Virus record (IMG/VR): IMGVR_UViG_3300025687_000369
Span: 1-21,991 of that record
Length of the DNA stretch: 21,991 nt
Direction: 5' to 3' (one strand)
Origin: a virus
The position numbers were made by a program, and so were the translations under genes. The notes under the pieces were generated by a model. That model made no database searches. It was given only the letters and a program-made list of their open reading frames with translations, and was not told where the DNA came from. Below, piece after piece: positions 422 through 11,692 of the stretch. The first letter of the stretch is position 1, and each line of letters begins with the position of its first letter.

Positions 422-826
422 AAACGGATTTGTTATTCCAAAATGTTTCTAAAAAATGGTAATATTACATTGTTTTCGCCGTTCAGCGTAGTAGACTAAT
501 CACAACTGGCAACGAAAGCCCAGCGGTGGATGCCCACCAACGGATAAGCGAGTAGTGTTAAGTCCGACCTTTACCGCGAAGGGTTCTAAATGCGGGCTTC
601 GCTGAAAGCAAGTAGTGTGGCGCGAGCGTATCGGTAGCGGGTATCCAAAGCCGAAAACGAACCACACCAAAGCCGGAACACATGGGAGACAGCCGACACA
701 CTAAACAGGAACAGTGTCGCGCAATGGGGCAGACAATCCCGCGCAATATGCACTGTTTCAGCGTTTGGGGTGTCACTTGTAAGCATTCGCGGAGTGTTTA
801 CAACTGACAAACTAAACGGAGGTTTT
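422..826 (+). ncRNA. Long structured leader or candidate non-coding RNA
   Basis: No credible gene lies in these 405 bases, and base composition becomes more GC-rich after about 500. Several local helices are visible: 525-529 with 534-538, 576-581 with 597-602, 615-620 with 662-667 enclosing 631-634 with 651-654, 694-699 with 714-719, and a competing 719-722/726-728 with 738-744. A 12-nt direct repeat AGCRAGTAGTGT occurs at 547-558 and 607-618. The spacing suggests a folded RNA following the rightward sigma54-like promoter. I do not recognise a known riboswitch, tRNA or large phage RNA class. A 41-codon frame at 682-807 exists but lacks a good ribosome-binding site. Confidence 0.3.
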
Positions 827-1264
827 ATGCAAACATTCGAGCAACTGAAAGAAGTTTCGAAGTGTTACCGAGAGCACAATGACTGCACTGTCAAGGGTTT
901 GGCTGTACTGTTTGGCTGCACCTACGGCGTGGCACATCGTGCACTTGATAAAAACGGCAGGCAGCGGAGACGCGGCGCGCCTTGGGCTACAATTAACGCG
1001 GCTATATCTCAACTGTCAGAGCGTTTCGGAGTAACAACAGAGACGTGCGGAAAGCCGGATGCGTCGGCTAGCTACGCGAGATACTGCGGATTTGAAACAA
1101 TGACAATTAAGCAGTTTATCAGGCGACACCCGAAAGGGGTTTACCTGTTAGCAATGCGGGGACACGTTGCAGCGCTGCGTGATGGTGTCTTGTACGATTG
1201 GACAGCAGACACCGCGCAGCGTAGACAAGTTACCGGATATATTAAAATCAACGGAGAGGGTTAA
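827..1264 (+). CDS. Small early protein with a possible papain-like Cys/His/Asp arrangement
   Basis: 145 aa from the ATG at 827, chosen because GGAGG sits 5 nt upstream; an in-frame start 19 codons earlier has no such site. The protein has an N-terminal NDCTVKGLA segment (Cys20), a basic GRQRRRG stretch (44-50) and a C-terminal block ending in RGHVAALRDGVLYDW (111-125, with His113 and Asp124). From general knowledge, many phages carry small proteins of this N-D-C ... G-H-x-x-A-V ... D-W layout. A nucleophile-like Cys at a helix start with later His and Asp is how papain-fold cysteine peptidases look. The 20-45 segment could alternatively be a helix-turn-helix. It is the first gene after the control region, so it would be expressed early. 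Function is unproven. Confidence 0.75.
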   Translation: MQTFEQLKEVSKCYREHNDCTVKGLAVLFGCTYGVAHRALDKNGRQRRRGAPWATINAAISQLSERFGVTTETCGKPDASASYARYCGFETMTIKQFIRRHPKGVYLLAMRGHVAALRDGVLYDWTADTAQRRQVTGYIKINGEG

Positions 1265-1267
1265 ACA

Positions 1268-1549
1268 ATGGAAAAAGTAACAATGCAAAACTTAGAGCAA
1301 ATGGCTGCGGTCATCAATAAGCAGCTAAACATAAACGCAACCGAGACATGGACAAAACAAGCGGACGGTACGTTTAAAGCTAACGTTGGGTTTTATCATG
1401 TTTTAGCGGACGGATGTGGGCACTCATTCTCCCGTATATGTAACACTGGAGGCGCGATAACTGACATTTTCAGAGGCAACACAAAACGCGAATTGATGCA
1501 ACAGATGCGCGCATTTTCTGCAGGATTAGCACATACTCAGGAGGGTTAG
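1268..1549 (+). CDS. Small early protein of unknown function
   Basis: 93 aa, unrecognised. The start ATG follows the junction cassette with GAGAGGG as ribosome-binding site; an alternative ATG lies six codons in. The first half is polar and Asn/Gln-rich; the middle has a GFYHVLADGCGHSFSRIC stretch with two Cys and two His, and the C-terminal third looks helical (KRELMQQMRAF). No signal peptide or membrane segment is seen. It is separated from its neighbours by 3 nt on each side, so it is translated as part of the early string. Confidence 0.75.
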   Translation: MEKVTMQNLEQMAAVINKQLNINATETWTKQADGTFKANVGFYHVLADGCGHSFSRICNTGGAITDIFRGNTKRELMQQMRAFSAGLAHTQEG

Positions 1550-1552
1550 ACA

Positions 1553-1744
1553 ATGAAACTTGCACCGGATTATATCAGGGTAGCTAAAAACAGCATTAGT
1601 GGAATGTGGGAAGTCAGGTTAAATTCACGGCTGCAAAGTGAACACGGTACGTTTTTTGGAGCGGAAAACAAAGCGCGCCAAATAGAATTTAAACTGTTAG
1701 ACCACGGTAAAGATTGCGAAATATCAATAGACATGAGGGGTTAA
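1553..1744 (+). CDS. Small early protein of unknown function
   Basis: 63 aa, unrecognised. The start is set by AGGAGGG in the junction cassette at 1541-1555. The sequence is soluble and mixed-charge, with a W-E-V-R-L beta-like stretch and a GTFFGAENKARQIEFKLLDHG segment likely to form strand then helix. Codon use is AT-rich like its neighbours. Placement between other tiny genes, with 3-nt gaps, is the main argument that it is real. Typical of phage early host-takeover genes, but no specific role can be named. Confidence 0.7.
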   Translation: MKLAPDYIRVAKNSISGMWEVRLNSRLQSEHGTFFGAENKARQIEFKLLDHGKDCEISIDMRG

Positions 1745-1747
1745 GCA

Positions 1748-1990
1748 ATGAAAGAAAAAGCAGAAGAATCTTTATATTCTAAAATGCAACCATCACGGGT
1801 GTGTAGTGAAGACGGCAGGCTAACAGCAATTTTATCTGCGGAAAATAGGAAACTGTACCCAGATCACCCAAAAGGTAAACCGTTTAGAGTTATCTGCTTT
1901 TACAACGACCACTATACTAGTGATTTTTATTATTCTAGTATTGAAGAGGCGCACAGGCTGATGCGCGATTACGTAAATAGTGACAACTAA
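1748..1990 (+). CDS. Small early protein of unknown function
   Basis: 80 aa, unrecognised. The start ATG follows the third junction cassette (GAGGGG ribosome-binding site). The N-terminus is charged and helical; the C-terminal half, with FRVICFYNDHY and DFYYSSIEEAHRLMRDYV, alternates strand and helix and is rich in Tyr and Phe. It ends 15 nt before the next start. No motif, signal peptide or membrane span is visible. Confidence 0.7.
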   Translation: MKEKAEESLYSKMQPSRVCSEDGRLTAILSAENRKLYPDHPKGKPFRVICFYNDHYTSDFYYSSIEEAHRLMRDYVNSDN

Positions 1991-2005
1991 ACAGAGGATC
2001 AGGCA

Positions 2006-2233
2006 ATGAAACTCTACAATGTAACGCACGGGAGCGTTGGCGTGATGCTAACGTCCCGTCAGAGCGCATACGAAGCCGCTAGAGCGATTCAAACGGCGGA
2101 CCCGTATGGTGGTATACCTTTCATATTTGAGCGCGTAGAAGACGATTCAGCAGCGCTGTCGTTGGTCTCGCAAAATGCAATGGAAAACCTGTTAAAATAT
2201 TTGGAGGTTGGAAATGGATCAGAAATATTTTGA
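2006..2233 (+). CDS. Small early protein of unknown function
   Basis: 75 aa, unrecognised. GAGGATCAGG precedes the ATG. The sequence has a strand-rich N-terminus (MKLYNVTHGSVGVMLTS), then a helical AYEAARAIQTAD and a strand IPFIFERVEDD, a compact alpha/beta pattern. Its last 20 nt overlap the 28-codon membrane peptide gene that starts at 2214, whose ribosome-binding site (GGAGG) lies within this gene. This suggests translational coupling. Confidence 0.7.
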   Translation: MKLYNVTHGSVGVMLTSRQSAYEAARAIQTADPYGGIPFIFERVEDDSAALSLVSQNAMENLLKYLEVGNGSEIF

Positions 2234-2300
2234 CGCACTGATTTGGTGCGCTGTTTGGATACCGATATTGTTGACGATGAAACCGTGGAGGCAGCTATGA
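2214..2300 (+). CDS. Tiny single-pass membrane protein (28 aa)
   Basis: ATG at 2214, with GGAGG about 6 nt upstream, opens a 28-codon frame ending at TGA 2298-2300, which shares ATGA with the next gene's start at 2297. The peptide has a short acidic-polar head (MDQKYFDA), a hydrophobic span with two Trp (LIWCAVWIPILL) and a positively charged tail (KPWRQL). That fits a single membrane segment with its C-terminus in the cytoplasm. The strong ribosome-binding site, both-side overlaps and membrane profile make it a likely gene. Candidate roles from known phage biology are membrane disturbance, superinfection exclusion or a pinholin-like activity; none is shown. Confidence 0.6.
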   Translation: MDQKYFDALIWCAVWIPILLTMKPWRQL

Positions 2301-2608
2301 CACACAGCCATTATCAAAAAGCAGAGATCAAAGTAGCAAAAGACCAGCCTACGATTTGGTTCGATGCTCTTACGATCGAGTATCTGGAGGCGTTGGTTGA
2401 ATACGACGCTGGATATATCCGAGACCGTATGGATTGGTATATGGAAGATAAGCGAGACGACATAGATGAATTTATCGAAATAGACGATATGCGTGTAGCT
2501 AACGCAGATCTTTCGGATATACTCGAACGAATAAAAGCACTCAGTGAAAAAGACGAGTTTCTGCTTTACGTTCCAGCAGAAGTCTCTTATGAAGACGAGG
2601 AGGACTGA
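2297..2608 (+). CDS. Acidic early protein of unknown function
   Basis: 103 aa from the ATG at 2297, preferred over an in-frame start 18 codons earlier because GGAGG lies just upstream and the ATG couples to the stop of the 28-aa membrane peptide. The protein is strongly acidic (many D/E, ending SYEDEED), with a long helical middle (IEYLEALVEYDAGYIRDRMD). Acidic small early phage proteins sometimes mimic DNA or bind basic host proteins, but nothing here identifies such a partner. Its TGA overlaps the next ATG by one base. Confidence 0.7.
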   Translation: MTHSHYQKAEIKVAKDQPTIWFDALTIEYLEALVEYDAGYIRDRMDWYMEDKRDDIDEFIEIDDMRVANADLSDILERIKALSEKDEFLLYVPAEVSYEDEED

Positions 2609-2691
2609 TGACGCTGCATGATTTTCTGTTATACATGATACTGTTTGGGGTTATTGTTATTTGGTTAGACATCAAGGGGAGAGACGAATGA
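2608..2691 (+). CDS. Tiny single-pass membrane protein (27 aa)
   Basis: ATG at 2608 shares a base with the upstream TGA. GAGGAGG ends about 5 nt before it. The 27-codon frame ends at TGA 2689-2691, overlapping the next gene's ATG at 2688. Nearly the whole peptide is one hydrophobic span (from FLLYMILFGVIVIWL) followed by a charged DIKGRDE tail. With its neighbour at 2214 it gives two membrane peptides within 400 bp, each slotted between soluble genes by ATGA-type overlaps. Such overlap at both ends is hard to explain unless the frame is translated. Function unknown. Confidence 0.6.
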   Translation: MTLHDFLLYMILFGVIVIWLDIKGRDE

Positions 2692-2900
2692 GTACACCAA
2701 AGAACGGCAGGGGTTACTTTGATTACGAGGCAGAGGACTTGATGCTGTACGTCAAGTGGGACTTGCACGACGACGAGATGTACGTCAACGCATATCTCAC
2801 ATCTGATTTCAAGATAGAAGTAACAGACTTTTTGTTTGACACAACGTTGGATAAGTTGTATGATTTTGCTCGGGATGAATACTGGGGAGGTTACGAATGA
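2688..2900 (+). CDS. Acidic early protein of unknown function
   Basis: 70 aa from ATG 2688, with GGGGAGAG as ribosome-binding site; the in-frame start 9 codons upstream falls within the membrane-peptide gene and lacks one. The protein is acidic and rich in Asp, Tyr and Phe (YFDYEAEDLMLYVKWDLHDDEMYVNA), with alternating strands and a C-terminal helix. Its last bases (ATGA) contain the next gene's start. Not recognised. Confidence 0.7.
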   Translation: MSTPKNGRGYFDYEAEDLMLYVKWDLHDDEMYVNAYLTSDFKIEVTDFLFDTTLDKLYDFARDEYWGGYE

Positions 2901-3082
2901 ACACACCGGATACAGTCAAGCGAGAGCAAGCACTTCAAAGTGCCAAACATGCACTGGGTTTGCTGCATGAGATGAGTGACGCAGGCACTGACGCGCTGGA
3001 TTGCTTCGCTATCTTAGATCTTGAGAACGTCGTCAGAGATTTGTCAAGAGCAGTGAAGAACTCTGAAGGGGTTGACAGCTAG
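2897..3082 (+). CDS. Small helical early protein, last of the early string
   Basis: 61 aa, almost entirely predicted helix (REQALQSAKHALGLLHEM and LENVVRDLSRAVKN), resembling a two-helix bundle. ATG overlaps the upstream stop as ATGA; GGGAGG lies 5-6 nt before it. The final codons contain the -35 box of the next promoter (3072-3077), so the early and replication units are packed together. No family recognised. Confidence 0.7.
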   Translation: MNTPDTVKREQALQSAKHALGLLHEMSDAGTDALDCFAILDLENVVRDLSRAVKNSEGVDS

Positions 3083-3100
3083 GGAAATCCATGTTACAAT
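3072..3100 (+). promoter_or_regulatory. Sigma70-type promoter of the replication unit
   Basis: TTGACA (3072-3077), a 17-bp spacer, then TACAAT (3095-3100): a perfect -35, optimal spacing and a -10 with five of six consensus bases. Transcription would start near 3107, about 85 nt before the primase-helicase start at 3192. Strong host-type promoters in the middle of the plus-strand genes fit a phage that relies on host RNA polymerase. Confidence 0.8.
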
Positions 3101-3114
3101 ATTACTTTAAAGAA

Positions 3115-3171
3115 CTGTTCAGTGCTTAACCGTATAACTTATTATAAATTTACTGTTAAGTTACTGAACAG
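3115..3171 (+). promoter_or_regulatory. Hairpin in the primase-helicase leader
   Basis: CTGTTCAGT (3115-3123) pairs with ACTGAACAG (3163-3171), and CTTAAC (3125-3130) with GTTAAG (3155-3160), enclosing a very AT-rich 24-nt loop; only a 1-versus-2-nt bulge interrupts 15 pairs. A direct repeat ACTGTTAAG occurs at 3152-3160 and 3174-3182. It begins just after the predicted transcription start and could be a 5' mRNA stabilising or translation-control hairpin, an operator, or part of a replication origin. There is no T-run after it, so a terminator is unlikely. Confidence 0.6.
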
Positions 3172-3191
3172 GAACTGTTAAGAGGACGGTT

Positions 3192-4766
3192 ATGGCTTAC
3201 TTAAAAACACATCAACCATGTGAGGACTGCGGCAGTAGCGATGCGCTCACGATCAACGACAATCGTTCGACATATTGTTATTCATGTCAGACGTACACAC
3301 CACCGGACAAGGTAAGAACTTTGCACAAACCAGAAACCAAGAAGCAGGTTAACGCCAAGCTGTTGACGGGTAGCTACTCAGCCATCATCAATCGACGTAT
3401 CAAGAAAGAGACAGCGCAGAAGTACAACGCGCTAGTCGATGGTGACAACGTTGTCTTTGGTTACTACGGTGAAGGCACTGAGCCGGTGGCAAGCAAGACT
3501 CGCTACCCTGACAAACGTTTCCTGATCGGAGGCGATTGGAACAAAGCAAAGATGTTCGGGCAGCAACTGTTCCCAGCCGGAGGCAAGTACATCACCATCA
3601 CTGAAGGTGAGTTCGATGCGATGGCTGTGTCGCAGATGTTCGACAACAAGTACCCCGTCGTTAGTATTCGGAACGGCGCAGGCAGTGCAGTTAAAGACTG
3701 TCAGGCACACTTCGAATACCTTAACAGCTTCGACAACATCGTGATCTGCTTCGATGCCGACGAGCATGGTCGGGAAGCGGCGAAGTCCTGTGCTGAGATG
3801 TTTGGTAACAAGGCGAAGGTAGTTAAGTTGACTGACTACAAGGATGCCAACGATTATCTCATCAACAATCAGGCACTCAAGTTTACGCAGGCATGGTGGC
3901 ACGCTGAGACGTTCACACCAGACGGTATTGTTTCTGCATACGAACTGCTTGATGACGTACTGGTTCCCATGAAGCGCAGTAAGTTAACGTACCCTTGGGA
4001 GCAGTTGGATAACATGTTATACGGCATACGTCCTGCTGAACTGGTTACGTTGTGCGCTGGCAGTGGTCTCGGTAAGTCAACCATACTGCGTGAGCTTGTC
4101 GTTCACATGATGCGACAGACGGATGACCCTGTTGGCTTGATGTTTCTTGAAGAGACACCGGAGCGTACACTGCGCGGCTTGATCGGGCTGGAGATGAACA
4201 AACCTATCCACCTACCAGACGTTGACTACACACCGGAAGAGGTGCTGGAAGTCTACACTGCTGGTGATTACGAGAATCGTGTATACTTCTGGGACAGCTT
4301 CGGTAGTAACGAGATCGAACGTGTGCTGGGACGGATGCGTTACTTTGTCAAAGGACTGGGGTGTAAGTTCATCGTGCTCGATCACCTGTCGATATTAGTT
4401 TCAGATCAGCAGAACGGTGACGAACGCAGGGCTATCGACATGATAATGACAAAGCTGCGGATGTTCTGTCAGGAGATGCGCGTTACACTTCTGCTTGTTA
4501 GCCACCTCAAACGTCCTGAAGGCAAGTCACTTGAGGACGGAGCAGTCACCAGCCTTGGCATGTTACGAGGCAGTGCCGCCATTGCACAGCTATCAGATGC
4601 GGTGATCGGTGCGGAACGTAACAGTCAGGCAGAGGATGCGGACGAGCGAAACCGAACGCGCCTGCGTGTGTTGAAGAACAGGTTCAGCGGTAAGACTGGG
4701 CCAGCAGGGTATCTGATTTACGATGAGAACACTGGACGTTTAAGTACTGAGGAGATTGCGCTGTGA
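3192..4766 (+). CDS. Primase-helicase (T7 gp4-like)
   Basis: 524 aa (T7 gp4 is 566). It unwinds the phage fork as a hexameric ring and lays RNA primers for the polymerase. Visible parts in order: an N-terminal zinc-binding domain with Cys10, Cys13, Cys29 and Cys32; a Toprim primase core with the ITEGEFDA motif (Glu138) and FDAD (Asp188/Asp190); then a RecA-like DnaB-type helicase with Walker A GSGLGKST (Lys295), a downstream FIVLDHLS hydrophobic-acidic Walker B-like stretch, and a LLLVSHLKRP segment typical of helicase motif H3. It starts at the ATG after AGAGGACGG and heads the unit driven by the promoter at 3072-3100. All key residues are present, so it should be active. Confidence 0.96.
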   Translation: MAYLKTHQPCEDCGSSDALTINDNRSTYCYSCQTYTPPDKVRTLHKPETKKQVNAKLLTGSYSAIINRRIKKETAQKYNALVDGDNVVFGYYGEGTEPVASKTRYPDKRFLIGGDWNKAKMFGQQLFPAGGKYITITEGEFDAMAVSQMFDNKYPVVSIRNGAGSAVKDCQAHFEYLNSFDNIVICFDADEHGREAAKSCAEMFGNKAKVVKLTDYKDANDYLINNQALKFTQAWWHAETFTPDGIVSAYELLDDVLVPMKRSKLTYPWEQLDNMLYGIRPAELVTLCAGSGLGKSTILRELVVHMMRQTDDPVGLMFLEETPERTLRGLIGLEMNKPIHLPDVDYTPEEVLEVYTAGDYENRVYFWDSFGSNEIERVLGRMRYFVKGLGCKFIVLDHLSILVSDQQNGDERRAIDMIMTKLRMFCQEMRVTLLLVSHLKRPEGKSLEDGAVTSLGMLRGSAAIAQLSDAVIGAERNSQAEDADERNRTRLRVLKNRFSGKTGPAGYLIYDENTGRLSTEEIAL

Positions 4767-4981
4767 AAAAAAAAGTAGACTGCAAGGTTGTTATCACACT
4801 TACACACAATGGTTCTTATATTGTAGAGAACAACGGAGTTACAACATGTCACGCTACATTCAAAGAAATGGTTGAAGGAAGATTGAAAAAGACCATCAAC
4901 AATAGATGGTGCGATTTGTTGAACTACATAGATGGAGCTAAATTTAAAGAAGAAGACGGGGAGCTTTTAGATGAGATGTAA
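4763..4981 (+). CDS. Small protein of unknown function, GTG start
   Basis: 72 aa. The start is a GTG overlapping the upstream TGA (GTGA) with GAGGAG about 8 nt before it, so translation is probably coupled to the helicase. The protein is basic at the N-terminus (KKKVDCKVV) and acidic at the end (KEEDGELLDEM), with short strands followed by helices. Codon use is more AT-rich than in the flanking replication genes, as often seen for recently acquired small phage genes. Not recognised. Confidence 0.7.
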   Translation: MKKKVDCKVVITLTHNGSYIVENNGVTTCHATFKEMVEGRLKKTINNRWCDLLNYIDGAKFKEEDGELLDEM

Positions 4982-5180
4982 AGCATGCAACGTAGAGCTA
5001 ACAGACTACGAGTCTACGCTGCGCTGCGCGAACACAGATGAGTTCATTGATCTCTGCATGGCATGCTTGACAGCAGGAGGTGATGAGAACTACAATGATC
5101 GTGCAGACTTGAGGACACTCGCTGATCTGCCTGAGCTACGCACATTCTTCGATGAGTTTGAGGAGTATTTAAATGAGTAA
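4971..5180 (+). CDS. Small zinc-ribbon-like protein
   Basis: 69 aa, overlapping the previous gene by 11 nt, with GGGGAG ahead of its ATG. The first 32 residues carry two CxxC pairs (Cys3/Cys6 and Cys29/Cys32) plus Cys19, a layout of small zinc ribbons; the rest is acidic and helical (PELRTFFDEFEEYLNE). Such proteins in phages can bind nucleic acid or host factors, but no specific function can be read off. It lies between helicase and polymerase genes. Confidence 0.75.
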   Translation: MRCKACNVELTDYESTLRCANTDEFIDLCMACLTAGGDENYNDRADLRTLADLPELRTFFDEFEEYLNE

Positions 5181-5221
5181 CATGAGCAGATGGTACTACG
5201 CTAACGTGACGGAGAAGTATT

Positions 5222-6859
5222 ATGACGACTGCGGTTTTGGATATAGAAACGACGCTGGATTGGAAGACGATACATCTAGCGGGAGTGTTTCTCCCGAACT
5301 CTGGGAGGAGTATTGCATGCTACAACGTTACTCAGTTAAGGGAAGCCTTGACAGGTATCTCGACACTGGTGGGCCACAACTTGATTGGCTTCGATCTGCC
5401 TAGACTGGAGGAAGTATGGGACTTCAAGTGGGACGGTCAGGTTCAGGACACTCTCGTGCTAGGCAGGCTGTACAACCCAGCCATAGACGGAGGACATTCG
5501 TTGAAACAGTGGGCTATACGTGCTGGCAACGAATTAAAAGGCGACTTCAATGTGGAAGACTTCGACGCAGGACTGACCCCAGAGATGGTGGACTACTGTC
5601 TCGCAGACTGCCGCGCAACGTGGAGCGTGTTCAACCACGTTACCCGGTTGCTAGACAAAGATCGATTCTCACAGCAATCCCGAGACCTAGAACATGGAGT
5701 GGCATTCGCAATCGCTCAACAAGTTCGCAACGGTTTCGCGTTCGACTTCGACACGGCGTGTCAGCTTCACTCAGAGCACGAGCAACGTATGCTGGAGATC
5801 AGCGATAAGATGCAGGAAGTGTTCCCGCCTATCGTTAAAGAGCGTTTGTCTCGCAAGACAGGTAAGCGTTTGAAGGATGAGATGATTGTGTTTAACGTAG
5901 GCTCTAGGCAGCAGGTTGCTGAACGTCTGTCTGCGCTAGGTGCGAAGTGGCCTGACAAAACCAAAGGCGGCAGCCCACAGGTTGACGAGACTTCGCTAAA
6001 ACGGAACGCGCATATACCGGAAGCACTTCTTGTTCTTGAGTACATGACGTTACAGAAACGTATAGGTATGCTCAAGTCTTGGATAGATAACGTAGGTATT
6101 GACGGTAGGATACACGGCTATGTCAACTCGTGCGGCGCTGTCACTGGACGCATGACACACAACAGTCCTAACCTAGCTCAGATACCATCGGAGTCTGAAT
6201 ACCGTAAATGTTTTATAGTTGAGGAGGGTAACGTGTTAGTAGGCGCTGACGCTTCAGGTCTTGAACTGCGCTGTCTTGCACACTACATGAACGATGTCAA
6301 TTACACTAGAGAACTCCTTGAAGGAGATGTACATGCAGCAACTCAAAAGGCTGCGCGACTTAGAACAAGAGATGATGCAAAGCGTTTCACATATGCTCTA
6401 CTCTATGGAGCAGGAGATACCAAACTGGGAAACCTCATCGGAGGAACTGCTAAGGATGGTAGAGATGCTAGAGACAACTACCTTAGAAGTATGTCTCCTT
6501 ATGCACAGTTGGTCGGAAAGGCTGAACGCGCAACTGAAAGAGGCTGCTTATCCGGCGTTGACAAACGCAAAGTTCGGATCAGGAACAGACACTCTGCACT
6601 GAACACACTGCTCCAGTCCTGCGGTGCTATCGTTATGAAGCAGGCGCTGGTACTGGCTGTTGAGAAACTCAAAGACGTACCGCATAAATTTGTTGGTAAT
6701 ATTCACGATGAGTTTCAGGTAGAGACTCCTGCTGAACATGGTGAAACAGTAGGCAAAGCATTAGTCCAGTCCATCATTGAGGCTGGCGAGGTTCTTGAAA
6801 TGCGCTGTCCGTTAGACGGTGAGTTCAAGATAGGTAAGACATGGGCAGAAACTCATTGA
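5222..6859 (+). CDS. DNA polymerase, family A, with 3'-5' exonuclease
   Basis: 545 aa (T7 gp5 is 704). It replicates the phage genome. The exonuclease sites are intact: Asp7 and Glu9 in VLDIET, Asp58 in IGFDLP, Tyr125 and Asp129 in YCLAD. The polymerase motifs are intact: A with Asp343 in DASGLELR, B with Arg383, Lys387, Tyr391 and Tyr395 in RDDAKRFTYALLYG, and C with His495, Asp496 and Glu497 in IHDEFQ. The shorter length suggests loss of T7-type insertions such as the thioredoxin-binding loop. Tyr391 is at the E. coli Pol I 762 position; Phe or Tyr there has been associated with virulent phages. ATG 5222 has GGAG upstream. Codon use shifts in residues about 357-460 (see findings). Confidence 0.96.
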   Translation: MTTAVLDIETTLDWKTIHLAGVFLPNSGRSIACYNVTQLREALTGISTLVGHNLIGFDLPRLEEVWDFKWDGQVQDTLVLGRLYNPAIDGGHSLKQWAIRAGNELKGDFNVEDFDAGLTPEMVDYCLADCRATWSVFNHVTRLLDKDRFSQQSRDLEHGVAFAIAQQVRNGFAFDFDTACQLHSEHEQRMLEISDKMQEVFPPIVKERLSRKTGKRLKDEMIVFNVGSRQQVAERLSALGAKWPDKTKGGSPQVDETSLKRNAHIPEALLVLEYMTLQKRIGMLKSWIDNVGIDGRIHGYVNSCGAVTGRMTHNSPNLAQIPSESEYRKCFIVEEGNVLVGADASGLELRCLAHYMNDVNYTRELLEGDVHAATQKAARLRTRDDAKRFTYALLYGAGDTKLGNLIGGTAKDGRDARDNYLRSMSPYAQLVGKAERATERGCLSGVDKRKVRIRNRHSALNTLLQSCGAIVMKQALVLAVEKLKDVPHKFVGNIHDEFQVETPAEHGETVGKALVQSIIEAGEVLEMRCPLDGEFKIGKTWAETH

Positions 6860-9576: not shown

Positions 9577-9827
9577 AGGTCATTGAAGGTAAGTTCGGGA
9601 TGCAGGACAAGGAGGAAGTCAAGGCTTCTGATATGTTCCAGAATCTCGCAGACGTTACCGATATGATGGAAGAGGAAGGCGTTGAGATCGAAGCGGTTGT
9701 CGTTATCAAGACTGAAATGTACGGCATACAGGTTTTAAGTAACGACATGACACAAGCATCGGCGCACTTCTTATTATCAAAAGGATCAACAGCCATACAA
9801 CTAAACGACCTTGGAACGGAGGACTAA
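9573..9827 (+). CDS. Small protein of unknown function ahead of the reductase
   Basis: 84 aa. The ATG overlaps the upstream stop (ATGA). The protein has an acidic helical middle (ADVTDMMEEEGVEIEAVVVIK) followed by strands and a short helix (DMTQASAHFLLSKGST), a small alpha/beta domain. Its TAA shares a base with the reductase ATG (TAATG), so it is translationally coupled to that gene. No family recognised; an accessory role in dNTP supply is only suggested by position. Confidence 0.75.
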   Translation: MKVIEGKFGMQDKEEVKASDMFQNLADVTDMMEEEGVEIEAVVVIKTEMYGIQVLSNDMTQASAHFLLSKGSTAIQLNDLGTED

Positions 9828-11692
9828 TGGACGCATATCAACAATACATACACAAGTCTCGTTACGCTAGGTACTTACCAAACGAACAGCGCCGTGAAAC
9901 TTGGATAGAAACAGTCAGGCGATACGTCAACTACTGGGGCGACAACCTACCGGATAAATACCGCAAAGAGGTTTTTGACGCTATACACGACTTAGATGTA
10001 ATGCCTTCGATGCGAGCACTGATGACAGCAGGTGAAGCACTCGACCGTGACAACGTAGCTGGATTCAATTGTAGTTACTTACCGATAGATCACCCTAAGG
10101 CGTTTGACGAAATGATGTACGTGCTCATGTGCGGCACAGGCGTAGGGTTCAGCGTCGAGCGTCAGTACATTTCAAAACTACCAGAGATTGCAGAGGAGTT
10201 CCATGACACAGACAGTTGTATACACGTTTCGGACTCGAAGATTGGCTGGGCCAAAGCCTATAGGGAACTTATTGCCATGCTCTATAGTGGTCAGCTTCCA
10301 AAGTGGGACGTCTCTGGAGTACGACCTGCAGGTGCCACCCTCAGAACCTTTGGCGGCAGAGCGTCTGGGCCTGAACCTCTTGAGGATCTGTTCCGATTTA
10401 CCGTTGAAGTCTTTCGGGGTGCTGCTGGACGAAGGCTTAGTTCCATCGAATGTCACGATCTCTGCTGTAAGATTGCACAGATCGTCGTTGTTGGCGGTGT
10501 CAGACGAAGTGCCCTTATCAGTTTGTCTAACCTTACAGATGATCGAATCAGACGATGCAAGTCAGGACAGTGGTGGGTAGACAATCCGCAACGTGGTCTT
10601 GCAAACAACAGTGCTTGCTACACAGAGAAGCCCGACTTCCCAGCCTTTTTAGATGAGTGGAAAAGTTTATATGAGTCCTACTCAGGAGAACGAGGAATGT
10701 TCAGCAGAGTTGCTAGTCAAAAGCAAGCTGCAAGAAATGAGCGACGAGATGCTACCTATGATTTTGGAACTAATCCGTGTTCAGAAATCATCCTCCGACC
10801 GTACCAGTTCTGTAATCTATCGGAAGTTGTTGTCAGGTCAACCGATAGTCTCGCAGACCTCAAACGAAAAGTACGTGTTGCGACTATCCTTGGAACTCTT
10901 CAGGCTACGCTGACAGACTTCCGGTACCTGCGTAAGATATGGAAGACTAACACGGAAGAGGAGGCACTACTGGGTGTATCGTTGACAGGAATTATGGATC
11001 ACCCGCTGCTGTCAGGGAGGGAAGACAATGCAAAACTTAAGAAGTGGCTTACGGCGTTACGTGAGGAAGCTATCGCTACGAATAAAGCATGGGCTGATAG
11101 ACTTGGGATTAATCCTTCTGCTGCTATTACTGCTGTTAAGCCCTCCGGTACTGTCAGTCAGCTTGTGGATTCTGCTTCAGGGATTCACCCGAGATACGCA
11201 CAACAGTACATTCGTCGCGTGAGAGCTAGTAAGAACGATCCGTTATGTGCCGTGCTGGAGGCTGCTGGTGTGCCTGTAGAGGACGATGTGATGTCACCCA
11301 GTACCAAGGTATTCAGCTTCGTTCAGAAGGCTCCTGACGGCGCTGTGACAGCCTCAGAGATGGGTGCTATGGAGCAGTTAGAACTGTGGGAAATCTATCA
11401 GGACTACTGGTGTGAGCACAAGCCGTCGATGACTTGTTACTACAGGGATCACGAGTTCTTGGAAGTTGGACAGTGGCTGTACAATAAGTTCGATAAGATC
11501 AGTGGCATTTCTTTCTTACCGTACAGCGAACACACGTATCAGCAAGCACCGTATGAGCCGATAGATAAGCAGACTTATCAGAAGCTCAGAAAAGAAATCC
11601 CAACCGCTATCGACTGGGACATTCGTGAGGAGGATGACAGGACTGAAGGGTCACAGCAGTTAGCTTGTACAGGTAACAACTGTGAGCTTTAA
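9827..11692 (+). CDS. Adenosylcobalamin-dependent (class II) ribonucleotide reductase
   Basis: 621 aa (Lactobacillus leichmannii RTPR is 739). It converts ribonucleotides to deoxyribonucleotides with a vitamin B12-derived thiyl radical. Visible: Cys82 in FNCSY, the first active-site cysteine; NPCSE (316-320) with Cys318, the radical-bearing cysteine, and Glu320; the GGVRRSALIS segment; and a C-terminal CTGNNC (Cys614/Cys619), the C-x4-C pair that re-reduces the active site from thioredoxin. No class I small subunit or class III glycyl motif is seen nearby. It is the last gene of the plus-strand unit. Phages of the SIO1/cobavirus kind typically carry this class. Residues about 115-330 use different codons from the rest (see findings). 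Confidence 0.94.
   Translation: MDAYQQYIHKSRYARYLPNEQRRETWIETVRRYVNYWGDNLPDKYRKEVFDAIHDLDVMPSMRALMTAGEALDRDNVAGFNCSYLPIDHPKAFDEMMYVLMCGTGVGFSVERQYISKLPEIAEEFHDTDSCIHVSDSKIGWAKAYRELIAMLYSGQLPKWDVSGVRPAGATLRTFGGRASGPEPLEDLFRFTVEVFRGAAGRRLSSIECHDLCCKIAQIVVVGGVRRSALISLSNLTDDRIRRCKSGQWWVDNPQRGLANNSACYTEKPDFPAFLDEWKSLYESYSGERGMFSRVASQKQAARNERRDATYDFGTNPCSEIILRPYQFCNLSEVVVRSTDSLADLKRKVRVATILGTLQATLTDFRYLRKIWKTNTEEEALLGVSLTGIMDHPLLSGREDNAKLKKWLTALREEAIATNKAWADRLGINPSAAITAVKPSGTVSQLVDSASGIHPRYAQQYIRRVRASKNDPLCAVLEAAGVPVEDDVMSPSTKVFSFVQKAPDGAVTASEMGAMEQLELWEIYQDYWCEHKPSMTCYYRDHEFLEVGQWLYNKFDKISGISFLPYSEHTYQQAPYEPIDKQTYQKLRKEIPTAIDWDIREEDDRTEGSQQLACTGNNCEL

Follow-up and report, generated by a model that had tools for sequence, protein, structure and literature searches.

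A phage small-gene array that recombines at gene starts and carries two unrelated families of predicted membrane microproteins

Two frames of 28 and 27 codons, here called s28 and s27, lie upstream of the primase gene in a 21,991-base record of an uncultured bacterial virus, the whole of which was analysed and is referred to as the window. The question raised by this locus is whether frames of this size are genuine genes and, if they are, whether they belong together, as a sequence-only reading of the window had supposed in proposing a small system made up of the pair and the acidic proteins between them. The features of the window are collected in Table 1, and its long ORFs from 11735 onward are on the minus strand. 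Compared with 50,697 phage records, the window primase gave only matches of less than 60% identity, the best among those listed being that of Pelagibacter phage HTVC115P (48.7%). No tRNA was found in the window, and no Rfam family reached its gathering score there.

Table 1. Features of the window and their positions, counted from its first base.
Feature	Position	Strand	Remark
145-aa gene, PHROG 3754	827..1264	+	heads the small-gene array
D75, 75-aa gene, constant upstream partner of s28	2006..2233	+	8/8 mapped loci with s28
SD of s28, GGAGG	2203..2207	+	read directly; kept in aligned relatives
s28, 28-aa single-span membrane microprotein gene (predicted)	2214..2300	+	
E103, acidic 103-aa gene between s28 and s27; exchangeable	2297..2608	+	
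SD of s27, GGAGG inside GAGGAGG	2599..2603	+	read directly
s27, 27-aa single-span membrane microprotein gene (predicted), conserved member	2608..2691	+	
F70, 70-aa gene, constant downstream companion of s27	2688..2900	+	18/18 mapped loci
G61, 61-aa, last gene of the array	2897..3082	+	
Primase/helicase, Toprim + DnaB_C	3192-4766	+	domain matches
Family A DNA polymerase	5222-6859	+	
B12-type ribonucleotide reductase	9827-11692	+	

The coordinates, lengths and overlaps that the sequence-only reading had given for the 28-codon frame (2214-2300) and the 27-codon frame (2608-2691) were all found to be correct. s28 shares its first 20 nt with the 3' end of D75 (2006-2233), and its stop, TGA, ends within the ATGA of the gene at 2297. 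For s27, the start forms a TGATG overlap with E103 (2297-2608) and the stop lies in the ATGA of F70 (2688-2900), and the overlap of stop codon with the next gene's ATG is accordingly present for both frames as described. The ribosome-binding sites noted for them could be read directly as SDs (tttGGAGGttggaaATG and gaGGAGGactgATG). A single hydrophobic span, also noted before, was recovered in each with a peak Kyte-Doolittle 17-residue mean of 1.9 for s28 and 2.5 for s27, which by hydropathy is a stretch long enough to cross a membrane, and the charged tails proved to be basic in s28 (KPWRQL) and mixed in s27 (DIKGRDE). It had further been remarked that automatic gene callers usually miss such frames; common callers have a default minimum of 90 nt, and s27 (84 nt) and s28 (87 nt, stop included in both cases) fall below it. 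The position of the two frames upstream of the primase gene suggests that they may be expressed early.

When the two strands of all 21,991 bases were screened for ORFs of 20-45 aa that begin with ATG and have both an SD and a hydrophobic span, s28 and s27 alone were returned, both with the coupled overlap. Among 300 dinucleotide shuffles of positions 801-5200, ORFs with these ORF, SD and span features arose at 0.063 per shuffle and none had the coupled overlap. Conservation in relatives is stronger evidence for the two frames than this rarity.

A primase search yielded 80 loci, with primases 76-100% identical to that of the window in L002-L013 and about 53-61% identical in L015-L081, while L014 is a fragment beginning inside the primase gene. 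At the locus itself, s27 was found in 11/11 of the relatives in the L002-L013 group that reach it; L004 starts only 14 nt ahead of the next gene, and this short piece is identical to the end of s27. For s28 the same search was positive only in part, the frame being present in L002, L003, L006, L008, L010 and L011 (6/11) and not found in the remaining 5/11 (L005, L007, L009, L012 and L013), all of which keep s27. L002 and L003 hardly differ from the window and add little weight. Both frames are present in L082, which was located by a search with the acidic gene. Neither was found in L015-L081, and s27 may therefore be dispensable or replaced at the scale of ~53-61% primase identity; many of these contigs start near the primase. 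Profile matches of s28 in L052 and L053 (E 0.54, opposite strand) were disregarded.

The window's s27 alone also retrieves a diverged clade (clade B) at E 0.0028 and 0.0061 among 26,490 segments. In this clade s27 is ~30% identical to that of clade A, the window and its closer relatives, and the layout is the same. A search with an alignment headed by the clade B s27 added five contigs, L092-L096, with no difference between L093 and L094 over the 10 kb compared; having been found by s27 itself, the five were excluded from the frequency of s27.

An excess of synonymous changes, the substitution pattern expected of translated frames by the sequence-only reading, was found for s27 in both clades and, in weaker form, for s28. 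Counted from variable columns and not from reconstructed events, synonymous and nonsynonymous changes stand at 8:5 in clade A s27 (9 sequences, L002 and L003 omitted; expected synonymous share 0.22-0.30, P 0.003-0.017 depending on transition bias), at 16:7 in clade B s27 (5 distinct sequences, P 7e-7 to 1.3e-5) and at 4:2 in s28 (7 sequences, L002 omitted, P 0.019-0.051), with 3 synonymous and 1 nonsynonymous change in the part of s28 beyond its overlap with the upstream gene (P 0.04-0.07). Third positions account for 8/12 variable columns in clade A s27, 14/21 in clade B and 5/6 in s28. In clade A s27, pS averages 0.135 over sequence pairs and pN 0.025; the corresponding averages for s28 are 0.077 and 0.014. 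Clade A s27 yields few substitutions, and the evidence of selection on s28, which consists of six changes, is weak.

Residues F6, Y9, I18, W19, K23 and G24 of s27 are invariant across 11 aligned sequences from both clades, and a block at the helix end, IW[LI][DE][IL]KG, is kept where the span diverges. The change G14W in L005, L006 and L009 indicates that mid-span residues are tolerant. The start of s27 alternates between ATG and GTG according to the upstream gene, and its stop is shifted by one codon (AAA to TAA) in L093, L095 and L096 with the next start intact; the exact SD likewise varies with the upstream gene, an SD being found in every aligned row. Both frames were thus found to be conserved under selection on the peptide, strongly for s27 and weakly for s28. 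It is almost certain that s27 is a genuine gene, and s28 is very probably one as well.

These observations bear on the idea that the frames are translated spacers, in which the peptide is irrelevant and a short frame only delivers ribosomes or an SD to the gene that follows. Both ends are tightly coupled, and 4-nt overlaps make up 63 of the 127 junctions in the mapped arrays, as such a role would have it. However, the synonymous excess and the residues invariant across ~30% identity show that the peptide is under selection, and other genes of the array couple without such spacers, so that this explanation is very unlikely.

Gene maps were drawn for 18 loci, including the window, L002 and L003 (L094 was omitted as a duplicate, and L091 represents L012). 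s27 is present in 17 of them, the exception being the truncated L004, and is retained although the gene to its left has changed in L005, L007-L011 and L082 and the one to its right in L008 and L009. s28 is present in 8/18, each time overlapping D75 by 20 nt (L085 ends inside D75). The interval between the two holds E103 alone in the window, L002 and L003; a 59-aa gene, H59, which is unrelated to E103, alone in L008 and L011, where E103 is absent; H59 followed by E103 in L006; and E103 followed by H59 in L010 and L082. Since its gene content varies in this way, there is no fixed module of s28, E103 and s27. The small system that had been suggested does not hold, as s28 is absent from 5/11 relatives keeping s27 and the acidic E103 is missing in 2/8 loci with both small ORFs (L008 and L011). 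s27 and s28 are not an obligate pair.

F70 follows s27 directly in 12 loci, with one gene between them in two (L009 and L013) and two genes between them in three (L093, L095 and L096). Its presence downstream in all 17 mapped s27 loci would be in keeping with s27 being the membrane anchor of a phage-only pair, made together with F70 by start/stop coupling and tethering it to the membrane, where F70 might, for instance, position replication or act on a host target bound there. The primase and other nearby genes are likewise co-inherited, however, which makes linkage alone a weak argument; the genes intervening in some loci imply that direct coupling is dispensable, and in L008 F70 is 35% identical whereas s27 is 96% identical. 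An anchoring role for s27 is for these reasons considered improbable.

A C5 cytosine methyltransferase gene (PF00145) lies directly before s27 in L095 (2379-3509). In L096, positions 4806-4988 hold seemingly just the C-terminal end of such a gene, and from this apparent remnant the methyltransferase gene seems to be decaying in place.

Other tiny putative membrane frames were identified in the relatives. Of the six mapped clade B loci, five have a frame of 25-37 aa (MLIYF...) upstream of s27, and in three a frame of 29 aa (MPTLIES...) precedes F70; a 21-aa frame (MIIIL...) lies farther upstream in L005, L007 and L009. The 21-aa and 25-37-aa families share 6/21 identities (shuffle p 0.015; E 0.34-0.83) and may be homologous. 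The tiny membrane frames of the locus suggest a repertoire and not a pair. A tentative elaboration, which we regard as unlikely, is that a fixed 27-aa s27 is accompanied by an interchangeable second microprotein of the s28, MLIYF, MPTLIES or MIIIL family, s27 serving as adaptor to a conserved inner-membrane target and the variable ones following host-specific targets, with a gene plus the SD tail of its predecessor as the unit of exchange.

The manner in which neighbours are exchanged was followed by aligning the clade A relatives to the window with BLASTN, L002 being dropped as near-identical and L012 and L013 as too diverged. Homology blocks end at 13 distinct breakpoints between 820 and 5180, ten of them no more than 12 nt from a gene start, compared with 0.96 expected (0 of 10,000 random sets as high); the remaining three are at 2323, 2868 and 3070. 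Homology breakpoints are thus placed at gene boundaries, as in the gene-boundary mosaic of tailed phages, and in L008 and L009 the s27 homology block (2608/2609-2694) is essentially the gene alone. The last 15 nt of unrelated genes preceding the same gene agree at 7.26 positions versus 5.56 (P 0.0003) and the first 9 nt after the start of genes sharing a seam at 3.23 versus 2.85 (P 0.07), both P values being optimistic owing to the common descent of the loci. The former suggests that a gene tends to travel with its own SD; shared first codons among genes sharing a seam are not claimed. The tract is a small-gene array that recombines at gene starts.

Insertions and losses were also seen along the tract. 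In L009 a 51-aa gene (4092-4247) is inserted after s27 and shares with it both the IKGRDE tail and the SD, as would be expected if the seam were duplicated upon insertion. After the primase gene, the window has a 72-aa gene (4763-4981) that is missing in L006, L008 and L009, where the join is at two gene starts (4766/4972), and that is replaced by other sequence in L007.

A strong sigma-70-like promoter (TTGACA, 17 nt, TACAAT, with TG) is predicted at 3072-3100, in the 109-nt gap that leads up to the primase gene; the 11 clade A relatives compared all have its TTGACA, with TACAAT or TAAAAT as second hexamer, and most clade B rows have a similar arrangement. With this promoter before the primase, the upstream array is probably a separate transcription unit. 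Between promoter and primase start, positions 3112-3181 carry an inverted repeat (CTGTTCAGT...ACTGAACAG) and repeated AACTGTT boxes, in place of which clade B has TTTAAAG boxes, as if a putative operator and its binder had changed together between the clades. Farther upstream, at 169-270, are inverted-repeat arms of 46 nt (72% complementary), the inner parts of which (aatgagaatcattatc) resemble the consensus of a Fur box. The stretch at 481-830, before the first array gene, is without an obvious gene and has a predicted fold of -113.6 kcal/mol over 350 nt, with no match in Rfam.

Neither s27 nor s28 has a match in Pfam or PHROG at E <= 0.1, and tblastn of both against the 50,697 phage records at E <= 10 gave no credible match, a single one at E 9 being disregarded. 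Against the same records, tblastn gave no match for clade B s27 at E <= 10 and none for clade B F70 at E <= 1. Clade B s27 does match PHROG 21338 (62 aa) weakly (E 0.016), which is taken as a lead only. When bacterial and archaeal genomes were scanned twice with alignments of s27, 105 and 92 pattern matches were obtained, none of them confirmed. Homology between s27 and s28 was rejected (window pairwise E 4.5 and 2.4, with the database size set to 100). F70 has no solved relative by sequence, and its model, a beta-beta-beta-alpha arrangement of low confidence (pLDDT 69), had no match in a fold search of the PDB at E <= 0.001; that of D75 (pLDDT 57.5) was too poor for a fold search. In the open-licence PubMed Central literature no earlier description of either family was found, which is not proof of none in print. 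s27 and s28 are two unrelated families that appear new to the libraries searched, the class of membrane microproteins itself being known.

The functions put forward by the sequence-only reading may be weighed against these searches. That s27 and/or s28 keep a second phage from entering (superinfection exclusion) or change the membrane potential during infection would agree with their place upstream of replication genes, and exclusion is known to occur through small inner-membrane proteins produced in infected cells. However, neither has a PHROG or Pfam match, exclusion families included, and the exclusion proteins known to us are larger; such a role is doubtful. As holin or lysis-control peptides they would have a single hydrophobic helix and a charged tail, but no holin family was matched in PHROG or Pfam at E <= 0.1, and the two genes lie upstream of the primase, away from lysis-type genes. 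In the related record G001, a Peptidase_M15 gene (PF08291) lies beside the terminase and a late, tail-side gene encodes a one-span protein that weakly matches a PHROG holin (E 0.043), and the suggested holin control is consequently judged extremely unlikely.

The explanation that we favour, with moderate confidence, is that s27 and s28 are unrelated phage microprotein families, each with a single inner-membrane helix and encoded in a coupled small-gene array, s27 docking on a larger membrane protein and s28 being an optional accessory. Judging from their sequences, each would insert one hydrophobic helix in the inner membrane of the host, with the C-terminus probably inside, according to the positive-inside rule and by analogy with the orientation measured for E. 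coli YohP. The array genes are coupled by their ATGA/TGATG overlaps just upstream of the primase gene. Single-span microproteins commonly act by binding a larger membrane protein, and s27 might, although less surely, dock laterally on one, most likely the host's, and alter its activity or stability. The IW[LI][DE][IL]KG block would then be the docking contact, and its conservation at the helix end fits a putative specific contact. s28 may be an optional accessory made together with D75, which is encoded just before it.

Genes of less than 90 nt are mostly absent from phage catalogues, and this locus is a clear case in which comparative evidence, not length, establishes tiny genes as real. s27 is among the most stable items of a fast-changing tract and, if it is true that it docks on a host membrane protein, would offer a very small handle toward the target of this phage group. 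The seam pattern of a gene with its preceding SD can be looked for in other small-gene arrays.

Among known systems, mobile regulatory cassettes of the T4 type use expression signals as seams for the shuffling of small genes, and the array does so too. The seams of those cassettes are intergenic promoter elements, whereas the array's seams are SDs and start/stop overlaps inside coding sequence. Exchanges in tailed phages are described, in the part of the account considered here, as occurring close to gene boundaries with gene functions kept (PMC3029335). The array resembles this mosaicism in its exchange near gene boundaries and differs from it, as far as that part goes, in having units down to 84 nt that tend to carry the last 15 nt of their predecessor, with the SD. 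Short phage genes, many previously unannotated, are presumed to act on host proteins, the examples in the relevant portion of PMC11323111 (a review of phage small proteins that cites Fremin et al. 2022) being of 51-79 aa and having repressors, RNA polymerase, toxins or quorum sensing as their targets. s27 and s28 are likewise short phage genes and, unlike the examples in that portion, are predicted membrane spans of less than 30 aa. The 27-aa YohP of E. coli is inserted post-translationally via SRP with its C-terminus inside, according to the section of PMC7549839 drawn on here. Unlike YohP, s27 and s28 are phage-borne and coupled in a gene array; without an evident sequence relation, they are like it in size, in one hydrophobic span and in a short charged flank (PMC7549839, same section).
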